The notes beneath the pieces were generated by a model. That model ran no database searches. It was given only the letters and a program-made list of their open reading frames with translations, and was not told the origin of the DNA. From contig JAIBBR010000029.1 of NCBI GenBank assembly GCA_019694575.1, positions 1-42,905 on the forward strand: 42,905 nucleotides of DNA, read 5' to 3'. The DNA is from Myxococcaceae bacterium. Lineage in GTDB: Bacteria > Myxococcota > Myxococcia > Myxococcales > Myxococcaceae. This document shows positions 16,045 through 26,697 of this stretch, in pieces. Each line of letters starts with the position of its first letter. Position 1 is the first letter of the stretch. The translations under genes and the position numbers were made by a program.

Positions 16045-17184
16045 ATGCGTACGTTCCTGGTCGGAATGCTGCTCTTCGTTCTCGGTGGCTGCTACCCCTC
16101 TATCGGTGACCTTCCCCAAATGGTTGGCGGGGGCACAGACGCCGGGGCAACGCACGGCATGGGCGGTGGCGGCGGCAGCGGGGGTGGCGGTGGTAGCGCC
16201 ACGGGTGGCGGAAATGGCACTGACGCCGGCAAAGACGCGGGGGTTCCCGACGGTGGGCCAAACGTAACGGGCCCCACCATTGGTGGTTGCCCGATGTTTC
16301 CTTTGACACACCCGTTCAACCGCGACGTTTCGAATGACCCGCTGCACCCTGACTCGGCGACGTTCATTACCAATTTGAGCACGCGCGCTCCGGTTATTCG
16401 CAAGCCCAACGGCAACGGTAACGAGTACTTCAACATCGTGCCTGCTTCGCAAGCGTTGGTGCCTTTCGACACCACGCACCAGCAATGGTTCGATTCGAGC
16501 GGAGCCTTCAAAGAATCGTTTGTGGCGGGAGAAGCGCCTGTTCCGACGGGTGTGCTTTACGAAAGTATGACGCCTGGCACCCAGGGCGACCACCACATGA
16601 TGATTGTTCAACAAGGCAGCTGTCGCCTGTTCGAAATGTACTCATGGAACCCCGGTGGACCGACCACGGGCTGGAGCCTTTTGCAGACGTGGGACCTCAC
16701 CAAGTACGAGCAGCTTCCCGAAGGCAAAGGGGCGACGACGGCGGCGGGCACTCCCATCATGCCGGGGGTGGTGTGGAAGCATGAGGTCGACACCGGTGAA
16801 ATCAAGCACGCGCTACAAATCGTCATGGGCTCGGCGGCGCTCTCGCGTTACACGCGCGTTCTGCCGGCGGGGCGTGCGGCGGGTGCCTGCGGCTCGGTCT
16901 ACCCGCTCGATGGTTTTCCTTATGGTGGGCGGCTGCGGCTCAAGGCGAGCTTCGACCCGGCGGCGCGGGGCATTACCGGGCAGACGTCGCTGGTGGTCAT
17001 CAAAGCGCTCAAGAAATACGGGCTATTCAACACCGACGACTCGGGTTACCAAGACCAAGCCGACTTCAGGTTTGGAGGCGGCGCGGTGTGGGACAAAGCC
17101 GACGTTGAGCAGCTCGGGCTTTTGAAGTGGACCGACTTCGAAGTGCCCCAGATGCAGCTGTTGGACAGCATGGCTTGCAATTAA
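16045..17184 (+). CDS. Secreted lipoprotein with Gly-rich linker
   Basis: 379 aa from ATG 16045. The N-terminus is a lipoprotein signal (MRTFLVGMLLFVLGGC) with the acylated Cys at 16. Residues about 30-75 form a Gly/Ser/Asp-rich linker (repeated GGGGS and DAG units), a typical myxobacterial spacer. The remainder looks like a compact secreted domain with paired cysteines (IGGCPMF, RAAGACGSVYPLDGFPYGG) and Tyr/Trp-rich strands. The family is not recognised. The position downstream of the sugar genes may be incidental. It precedes the rplU promoter. Confidence 0.75.
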   Translation: MRTFLVGMLLFVLGGCYPSIGDLPQMVGGGTDAGATHGMGGGGGSGGGGGSATGGGNGTDAGKDAGVPDGGPNVTGPTIGGCPMFPLTHPFNRDVSNDPLHPDSATFITNLSTRAPVIRKPNGNGNEYFNIVPASQALVPFDTTHQQWFDSSGAFKESFVAGEAPVPTGVLYESMTPGTQGDHHMMIVQQGSCRLFEMYSWNPGGPTTGWSLLQTWDLTKYEQLPEGKGATTAAGTPIMPGVVWKHEVDTGEIKHALQIVMGSAALSRYTRVLPAGRAAGACGSVYPLDGFPYGGRLRLKASFDPAARGITGQTSLVVIKALKKYGLFNTDDSGYQDQADFRFGGGAVWDKADVEQLGLLKWTDFEVPQMQLLDSMACN

Positions 17185-24283: not shown

Positions 24284-25174
24284 TTACTCGTCGTGCGCCG
24301 AGACCTTGAAAGTATCGAGTACGGCTTGCGACGCGCGCGCCAAGTACTTGCCCTTGCGAACCAAAATGCCAATGGGGCGGGTGTAAGTGCCTTCGGCGAA
24401 AGGCCGCGCCACCAAGCTGCCGCTCGCCACTTCTTGCTTCACCGTCGCCCAGGGCAGCACCGAAACGCCTAAGCCCAACTCCACGGCGCGTTTAATGGTT
24501 TCGACGTTGTCCATCTCCATGGTCGGTTGCAGCTCGAGCCCTTTGTCGCGGAACAATTTGTCAATGCCTTTGCGCGTGGGCGCTTCACGGTCGAAGGCGA
24601 TGAAGGGCAGGCCGGCCACCGCGCTCATCGCGACTTTTGATTTGCTCCCCAACGGGTGGTCGGGTTTGCAAATCAACGCCAGCTTGTCTTCACGAAAGGG
24701 AATCACGTCGACGCCAGCGCGTGGTTGTGGGTACGCCACCAGGCCGAGGTCAGCCGCTCCTAAAATCACGTCGTCGTAGACCTGGTCACTGCGGCGGTAA
24801 TTGAGCCGCATATTCACTTTGGGGTGTGCCTTGAGCAGCGCCCTCTGAATGCTCTGCAGCTCGTGCAGACCGACCGAGTAGATGGTCGAAATGGTGGCCG
24901 CCCCCGACACTTCGGTGGCCTGCTCACGAATTTCTTGCTCCACCTCGTCGAAGCGCGCCAAAATTTCTTTGCAGCCGCGAAACAGCCGCTCGCCCGCCGG
25001 CGTGGGTGTCACTTGCCGCGCGCTGCGTGAAAGCAACCGTTGCTCGTACCGGTTTTCAAGTGCTCGAATCTGCTGGCTTACCGCTGACTGGGTGACATGG
25101 TTGAGCTGCGCCGCGCGCGAAAAGGAACCAGTTTCGACCACATCGCAAAACATCTTCAATGATTCGAGCTGCAT
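24284..25174 (-). CDS. LysR-family transcriptional regulator
   Basis: 296 aa, normal LysR length. The N-terminal winged helix-turn-helix covers residues 1-60 (MQLESLKMFCDVVETGSFSR..., VTQSAVSQQIRALE), followed by a linker helix and a periplasmic-binding-protein-like effector domain (about 90-296, with GAADLGLVAYP and ELGLGVSVLPW). It resembles the CysB/CysL/CmpR branch, which senses metabolites in sulfur, nitrogen or carbon assimilation; the effector here is unknown. It is divergent from the vWA lipoprotein gene. An inverted repeat 11-36 bases upstream is a candidate autoregulatory operator. Confidence 0.93.
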   Translation of the reverse strand: MQLESLKMFCDVVETGSFSRAAQLNHVTQSAVSQQIRALENRYEQRLLSRSARQVTPTPAGERLFRGCKEILARFDEVEQEIREQATEVSGAATISTIYSVGLHELQSIQRALLKAHPKVNMRLNYRRSDQVYDDVILGAADLGLVAYPQPRAGVDVIPFREDKLALICKPDHPLGSKSKVAMSAVAGLPFIAFDREAPTRKGIDKLFRDKGLELQPTMEMDNVETIKRAVELGLGVSVLPWATVKQEVASGSLVARPFAEGTYTRPIGILVRKGKYLARASQAVLDTFKVSAHDE

Positions 25175-25184
25175 AGATACGCCT

Positions 25185-25210
25185 CTAATATCGACTCTAT
25201 AGACTATTAG
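25185..25210. promoter_or_regulatory. inverted repeat, candidate LysR operator
   Basis: CTAATA (25185-25190) and TATTAG (25205-25210) form a 6-bp inverted repeat with a 14-base centre containing CTATAG. It is 11 bases upstream of the LysR start. LysR proteins usually bind a T-N11-A dyad next to their own gene. The final G is also the first base of the adjacent target-site duplication. Confidence 0.4.
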
Positions 25211-25215
25211 CTAGG

Positions 25216-25374
25216 CCGCATATGTCACCGGTCTCTCGTAACGAGACTGGCAGGCTGTCGGCAGATTCGTGGTGGCGCACAGCGAAGGCGCACTTGTCGG
25301 TGCGCTTTTAGCGAGCACGCCGCGAAGGTGCCACAGACCGTCAGTCGCAGTCGTGAGACCGGTGACATATGCGG
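25216..25374. mobile_element. MITE-like element A (159 bp)
   Basis: Perfect 20-bp terminal inverted repeats CCGCATATGTCACCGGTCTC occupy 25216-25235 and 25355-25374. They are flanked immediately by exact 6-bp direct repeats GCTAGG (25210-25215 and 25375-25380), a target-site duplication. Weaker complementarity continues inward for about 35 more bases on each side (for example GACTG, CTGT and TTCG blocks in register). The element is therefore nearly palindromic around a ~45-base core. It has no ORF. The inner part of the repeat (TGTCACCGGTCTC) resembles ends of some IS21/IS481-type transposons, but relatedness is inference. Confidence 0.75.
25288..25309 (+). terminator. terminator-like hairpin inside MITE-like element A
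   Basis: GCGCAC (25288-25293) pairs with GTGCGC (25300-25305) across a 6-base loop and is followed directly by TTTT (25306-25309). Oriented on the plus strand, it would block read-through toward the vWA gene from the left. The stem is short, so activity is uncertain. Confidence 0.45.
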
Positions 25375-25471
25375 GCTAGGCCTACATGGGAGCGCAAACC
25401 GCGTTTCTCGATGCGCGGCCGTTACGAAATACCTTGTTTGAAGGTTTGGGCGGCTATCGGCCACTGGGCTT

Positions 25472-25491: not shown

Positions 25492-26697
25492 ATGCCGCTA
25501 CCCCGCTTGGCGTTGAGTGTGCTGCTCACCTTGGCTGCCTGTCAGACTTACGAATTTCAGCCCGCCCCGCCCCTGGCTTGGGAAGTGGCCTTGGCCCATG
25601 AAGACTTGGCGGCCACCGCGCCCAAGCCGAACTTGTTCTTCTTGGTCGACAAGTCAGGGTCAATGACGCTCAGCGCTGACCCGTCTTGCGGCGCGAACTG
25701 CACCAGCCGCTGGCAGGCGCTGACTTCTGCGATGGAAAAATTCGCGAGCAGCTCGGGCACGGTGGCCCACACGGGCATGCTCGCTTTTCCCAAGGCCCCC
25801 ATGAGCGATGCCTGCCAGCCGCCCGACATGGGCGACCTCGACAGCCTGGGTGTGGCGCTCGATGGCTCAGCGGTCGACGACGACGCGGCGTTGCAACAAA
25901 AGACTGACGAGGTGTTGGGCAAGATTCGCGAAATCACGCCGCGAGGAGGCACGCCCACCGCGTTCAGTGTGCGCGCCTTGGCCCAGTACACGCCCTTGGT
26001 GCGGCCTGCGTATCACCGCGCCAGCTTCGTGGTGTTGATGACCGACGGCTTGCCCAACTGCAACCCGCAGCACAACGGCGAGTCGGCGAGCTGCTACTGC
26101 ACCAACACGAGAGACCAGGGCAGCTGCCGCACCCCAATCGGCGCGCCGCCCAACAACCAATGCCTCGACGGTTCGGGCACTGCTGCCGAAATTGCGTTTT
26201 TGCGCGAGCACTACGGCGTACGCACCATCGTGGTGGGGTTTGGCACCGACGTCACCGGCAGTGTGGGGCAAACCACGCTCGAGGCGATGGCGCGGGCGGG
26301 TGGTTTTCAACGGCGCTGCCAGAGCGACGCCGACTGCGGCGTGGCCGACACCTGCGCTCCGGGGGGTACCGACGCGTGCGGCCGAGCCATCACTGCCTGC
26401 ACCAAAAGTTTTTACCAAGCAGCCAACGCGTCAGAATTGGGCGATGCGCTGAGCAAAATTCGCGACCAAATTTCGTGCGACCCCTGCTCGCGAGCGCTGC
26501 CAGCCACTCCGAAAGACGCGCGTTTGGTTTCAGTCATCATCGATGGCACGCCGGTGCTGCCCGGGCCCGACACCTGGTCAGTGGTGGGCAGCAACGTGGT
26601 ATTCGTCGCGAACGGAAACATTTGCCAGCGCATTCGGGCGACCACGTTACTCGAGCCATTGAAGGCCGAGTTTCGCGTCGCCAACCCGCTCGAATAG
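25492..26697 (+). CDS. von Willebrand factor A domain lipoprotein
   Basis: 401 aa. The lipoprotein signal MPLPRLALSVLLTLAAC has the acylated Cys17. The vWA domain starts at about residue 46 (PNLFFLVDKSGSM) with an intact MIDAS Asp53-x-Ser55-x-Ser57. The TPRGGTPTAFSV loop and FVVLMTDGLPNC follow as the other metal-binding segments. A Cys-rich insertion (about 195-225 and 310-345, with many Cys/Asp/Gly, reminiscent of small disulfide or calcium-binding loops) interrupts or follows the domain. Predicted as a surface-attached, metal-dependent adhesion or sensing protein; this type is frequent in myxobacteria. The 41-codon upstream extension runs into the transposable element and is rejected. Confidence 0.88.
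   Translation: MPLPRLALSVLLTLAACQTYEFQPAPPLAWEVALAHEDLAATAPKPNLFFLVDKSGSMTLSADPSCGANCTSRWQALTSAMEKFASSSGTVAHTGMLAFPKAPMSDACQPPDMGDLDSLGVALDGSAVDDDAALQQKTDEVLGKIREITPRGGTPTAFSVRALAQYTPLVRPAYHRASFVVLMTDGLPNCNPQHNGESASCYCTNTRDQGSCRTPIGAPPNNQCLDGSGTAAEIAFLREHYGVRTIVVGFGTDVTGSVGQTTLEAMARAGGFQRRCQSDADCGVADTCAPGGTDACGRAITACTKSFYQAANASELGDALSKIRDQISCDPCSRALPATPKDARLVSVIIDGTPVLPGPDTWSVVGSNVVFVANGNICQRIRATTLLEPLKAEFRVANPLE

Follow-up and report, generated by a model that had tools for sequence, protein, structure and literature searches.

The window (the whole stretch of 42,905 nucleotides that was analysed) carries, between a LysR-family regulator gene and a vWA lipoprotein-like gene, a miniature inverted-repeat transposable element (MITE) whose interior is shared with elements that have quite different ends. 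We consider it very probable that this is a non-autonomous, IS1380-ended MITE, moved in trans into YTAR, with a core homologous to that of MITEs with other ends. Judged from its letters and those of its relatives, the element is a real and fairly recent MITE, ordinary in behavior and new as a member of this class. The unusual part is the shared structured core with its exchangeable ends. The features of the element and its neighbors are collected in Table 1.

Table 1. Features of the element and of the flanking genes, in window coordinates
Feature	Position	Strand	Basis
LysR-family regulator gene	24284–25174	-	PF00126 and PF03466
Left target-site duplication CTAG (YTAR)	25211–25214		equals right copy; sibling flanks
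Left terminal inverted repeat GCCGCATATGTCACCGGTCTC	25215–25235	+	first base C elsewhere; ends as on IS1380 elements
Structured core, long imperfect hairpin	25241–25350	+	R2 match, E 7e-6 in 380 kb; pair counts
Conserved basal loop of core	CGA 25242–25244 / GCAG 25347–25350	+	pair counts
Apical hairpin AGGCGCACTTGTCGGTGCG	25286–25304	+	common to G038 elements; pattern search
Right terminal inverted repeat	25355–25375	-	letters; sibling copies
Right target-site duplication CTAG	25376–25379		sibling comparison
vWA lipoprotein-like gene	25492–26697	+	VWA_2, just below cut-off

The preliminary description of this DNA had the inverted arms in the right place: CCGCATATGTCACCGGTCTC at 25216–25235 has a perfect reverse complement at 25355–25374 (20 of 20 bp), and GCTAGG does occupy 25210–25215 and 25375–25380, as a check of the letters confirmed. 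It had taken GCTAGG for a 6-bp target duplication around an element of 159 bp, and both figures are revised by comparison with every other copy in the genome. All siblings start with CCCGC and have YTAR flanks, the layout being YTAR, CCCGCATATGTCACCGG, the interior, CCGGTGACATATGCGGG, and YTAR again. Because the siblings begin with CCCGC directly next to YTAR, the element spans 25215–25375 (161 bp) and the CTAG copies are those of Table 1. The window copy starts its left repeat with G where all other copies have C; this C-to-G change, together with flanking G's, mimics a longer repeat and explains the 6-bp appearance. The duplication is taken as 4-bp YTAR since the flank pairs match in most copies: CTAG/CTAG, TTAG/TTAG, or TTAA/TTAA is seen in most copies having both ends, and the YTAR flanks are one base apart in three or four copies. 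A 17-bp end is common to the copies. At 161 bp, the element falls within the 50–500 bp range of bacterial MITEs. It has a GC content of about 65%, and the ORF list contains no frame of at least 80 amino acids inside it. A single strand forms one long imperfect hairpin; with DNA parameters the whole element folds at −63.2 kcal/mol, compared with a shuffled mean of −33.2 (z −10.5; none of 200 shuffles as good).

The element is a repeated sequence. In its own genome (G000; 5.28 Mb in 220 contigs), it is present as ten full copies, another two truncated at contig ends, and fragments; these are 94–99% identical to one another, have unrelated flanks, and adjoin a dozen unrelated genes. Thus, the structure does not reflect a chance fold-back, which is excluded by the ten full and two cut copies at unrelated sites. 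The genome-wide recurrence, the target duplications, and the ends matching a known IS family bear out the earlier view of a MITE, and its picture of a recent transposition product lacking a transposase holds in that the insertion is fairly recent, the nearest siblings (on contigs C152 and C23) being 98.8% identical. The lack of any further copy, which that description had named as a refutation, does not apply. One further copy, at 76% identity, lies in G002, a genome of another genus of the same family. Neither a search of plasmid, phage, and viral-contig collections nor a scan of genome contigs with a 27-base pattern returned a match to the element. At one site in G000 (C180:4698–4881, L018), a full copy is directly followed by TTAA and then by another 17-base left end, which is a remnant of a nested or tandem insertion.

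The ends of the element point to IS1380. The element end, YTAR followed by CCCGCATATGTCACC, also occurs at one end of complete IS1380-family elements elsewhere that carry a transposase, with 15 of 15 bp shared and the same YTAR duplication. In OX638343.1, three identical 1784-bp IS1380 copies begin with the same 15 bases, carry CTAG/CTAG and TTAG/TTAG duplications, and encode a transposase matching PF13701. OX638346.1 has independent MITEs of 240–287 bp with these ends and YTAR duplications. An end-pattern search over the order found similar YTAR-flanked ends starting IS1380-family elements; the transposase of one of them, in G111, is IS1380 (NCBIfam NF033539, E 4e-106; Pfam PF13701), and complete IS1380 elements with related ends and CTAG on both sides, 1653 and 1693 bp long, occur in relatives. 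IS1380-family elements therefore resemble the MITE in the terminal repeat and the 4-bp YTAR duplication, but they have a transposase and share only their ends with the MITE, which lacks one. Given these common ends and the common YTAR target, we file the element as an IS1380-type MITE.

An IS with the same ends, to which the preliminary description had looked as a further test, therefore exists in OX638343.1, but in G000 we found only IS1380-like contig ends. There, YTAR followed by CCCGTATCGGTCACCGG stands at nine contig ends (C13, C24, C57, C60, C144, C160, C164, C200, and C209), and this end matches the MITE end at 14 of 17 bases. The 125-bp left-end pieces on C24, C57, and C60 are mutually identical and have about 79% identity to the G111 IS, which suggests several recent IS copies with an unassembled interior. 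The ends on C13, C160, and C164 are probably the right ends of the same resident element, judging by their orientation and a shared repeat. No PF13701 domain and no complete IS1380 transposase gene were found in the G000 assembly. Collapsed multi-copy repeats can leave the interior of an IS out of an assembly, and the interior may be absent from G000 for this reason. Contig-end fragments and the 14 of 17 end bases are thus what connects the MITE, in sequence terms, to a resident IS.

The identity of the ends suggests how the element would move. An IS1380 transposase acting in trans would recognize CCCGCATATGTCACCGG at both ends and move the 161-bp unit into YTAR tetranucleotides, duplicating the target on insertion. 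The enzyme may belong to a resident IS1380 that was assembled without its interior, or to one since lost.

The interior of the element has relatives that lack these ends. When the order was searched with a covariance model of the MITE (R1), the G002 copy was recovered, together with weak matches to five loci in G038, which belongs to another family. The ends of the G038 elements differ (GAGGCTGTCGG, GGCGTGTCC, GGTGTGTTC, GAGCCTGTC, CCGGAAATCC, and AGCGGTTTTCAG), and the first four resemble the end of the IS5-type element resident in G000, GGCCTGTC. Every one of these elements contains the hairpin AGGCGCACTTNTCGGTGCG, exactly or with one base changed; a pattern search found 46 matches in G038, 12 in G000, all of them MITE copies, and background elsewhere. 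A second model (R2), built from G038 cores only and including no IS1380 end, matches all ten full-length G000 copies and the G002 copy from end to end (E 2e-8 to 3e-5 in 380 kb, the E-values of both models being rough), with nothing unrelated above about 20 bits apart from one locus on contig C55. With a sequence-only profile, a G000 core scores 27.8 bits, compared with a maximum of 14.4 in 1000 pair-preserving shuffles. Given the end-to-end matches and the profile score, the cores of G000 and G038 are, by their sequences, homologous although their ends differ. As candidates for the same core family, gammaproteobacterial IS1380 MITEs receive E-values of only 0.25–0.8 from R2. Since a homologous core lies inside different ends, cores and ends act as interchangeable modules, and the core resembles a structured unit that transposon ends of various kinds carry.

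Several other loci were seen in these searches. The C55 locus of G000 (about 16604–16730; L021:5105–5231) reaches 50 bits with R2, has no recognizable IS1380 ends, and is perhaps a diverged, old relative of the core. In the 3.8-Mb genome G038 (e.g., L204–L231), a single core combined with several end types makes up about 46 hairpin elements, and some longer ones (223–299 bp) carry extra inserted segments. Palindromic MITEs with IS1380 ends occur in Gammaproteobacteria and in a Myxococcales MAG (L118, L120, L123, L126 [OX638346.1], L125, L130, and L127); their folding is strand-asymmetric too, and some have GCGAG/CGCAG loop motifs like the G000 core. An old MITE-like hairpin in G010 (L232, on C12) has ends like those of the CCCGGATTATTCACC type of IS1380 and the same GCGAGGC/GCCGCAG basal motif as here.

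What maintains the core is a separate question. Standard pairs make up 91% of the pair cells in an alignment of 28 distinct cores, and 23 of the 39 pairs have changed on both sides, with a covariation score of 0.449 as compared with 0.159 for shuffled alignments and 0.05–0.10 for slid structures; this alignment (A6) was fitted to the structure and so leans that way, and its sequences are related. A separate alignment of the G000 and G002 copies contains double changes of the same kind. One account holds that the core is merely an inherited palindrome, kept up by quasi-palindrome correction at replication, that it acquired its ends by chance recombination with IS ends, and that it has no function. 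The interiors of MITEs are commonly regarded as passive, and homogenization of the arms can yield double changes in a single event. However, correction should remove mismatches, yet the internal loops persist. The unpaired positions are kept across types: CGA/GCAG at the base, xxA/GA below the apical stem, and UUNUC in the loop. A strand preference also persists across end types and two families. We regard the inherited palindrome as having not quite an even chance of being the whole explanation.

Alternatively, selection may conserve the core as a structured RNA (or single-strand) element, for which the transposon ends are only the vehicle. Transcribed within untranslated regions, such an RNA would bind a protein or withstand RNase III, its duplex being broken by the internal loops. 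The pairs changed on both sides across types and the unpaired motifs kept while helices vary favor selection on such a structure. So does the strand preference: in each of the 36 elements, the strand with the UUNUC loop gives the better fold, by a mean of 14 kcal/mol, although most single elements depart from a mutated-palindrome null by no more than about 2 sd and related copies do not count as independent. DNA parameters give a preference of the same sign, so RNA is suggested but not proven. Rfam gave no match up to E 1, or up to 0.5 in a second search. The orientation of the copies to neighboring genes is mixed, which leaves a cis-regulatory role unsupported at present. Taken together, selection on the core for its own sake is a possibility that we rate below an inherited palindrome. 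A fuller version, in which a folded, strand-specific, RNA-like core rides MITEs with several unrelated ends (IS1380, IS5-like, and at least two others), its loops being selected for an RNA-level role for itself or its host, is more tentative still. Further along this line, the core may act as RNA on the + strand.

Ascribing the element to another family is very unlikely. A MITE of the IS630/Tc1 kind, with a TA target, or one derived from the resident IS5-family element would have some appeal, since IS630 elements have TA targets and the resident IS5-type element is likewise flanked by CTAG/CTAA. However, TTAG on both sides of copies suits a 4-bp rather than a 2-bp duplication, the resident IS5 and ISAs1 elements carry different ends, and G000 has no IS630 DDE_3 domain. 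For the same reasons of duplication length and absent DDE_3, MITEs of the IS630 type, such as RUP and Correia, were rejected. REP/BIME sequences, which are GTAG-headed hairpins without target duplication that RAYT, a Y1 transposase, mobilizes, were set aside because the element has target duplications and perfect terminal inverted repeats. Finally, a fixed, non-mobile regulatory hairpin of the LysR–vWA intergenic region, which the strong fold at the locus might have suggested, is refuted by the copies of this sequence, with target duplications, beside a dozen unrelated genes.

It is useful to contrast the element with known systems. A 2024 review of prokaryotic MITEs does not include IS1380 (PMC10969869), and the searchable literature on IS1380 and MITEs, of incomplete coverage and hence short of proving absence, describes no IS1380 MITE. 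By description, Coxiella QMITE2, Correia/nemis, and ERIC (PMC10969869) are likewise short, non-coding, fold-back elements with terminal inverted and direct repeats, lying beside or between genes; MITEs are said to be typically AT-rich (PMC10969869), whereas this one is GC-rich. The mosaic non-autonomous elements built by TIMEs, Tn3-derived end pairs that mobilize various DNA (PMC4133298), are also new combinations of ends and cargo, but here one folded core recurs in different end types. Animal piggyBac MITEs are likewise short, with 4-bp TTAA-like targets; they are eukaryotic and serve as an analogy only, IS1380 having been used as an outgroup to piggyBac (PMC10813416). Within the IS1380 family, a 5-bp duplication is listed for IS1247 of Paracoccus (PMC3281130).

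The element may be relevant in several ways. First, the interior of a MITE is generally viewed as a decayed remnant of the parent transposon. One folded interior that recurs under different ends in two families, and that shows compensatory changes along with conserved loops, allows a direct test of whether MITE cores have a function. Second, IS1380, a bacterial relative of piggyBac, is added as a source of MITEs. Finally, R2 is a ready model for surveys.

At the locus itself, the placement between the LysR and vWA genes given in the preliminary description is correct, according to the ORF list and the domain matches. On one side, 37 bp separate the element with its duplication from the LysR start, and on the other about 112 bp separate it from the vWA start; no promoter or terminator consensus was found in this intergenic region. 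Within the family, no relative of the vWA protein exceeds about 45% identity. Across the genome, 6 of 12 copies coincide exactly with the stop codon of a neighboring gene, where the YTAR duplication restores TAG or TAA; at C131, the protein extends to the end of its family model. This preference is not significant (P 0.15), since 32% of non-disruptive YTAR sites fall at stop codons, and special stop-codon targeting was therefore rejected in favor of YTAR targeting combined with selection against disruption. The repeat also contains CATATG and thus supplies an outward ATG at each end. From the ATG inside the right repeat (25369), the vWA frame would be longer, 442 rather than 401 amino acids, and a naive gene caller would pick this start.
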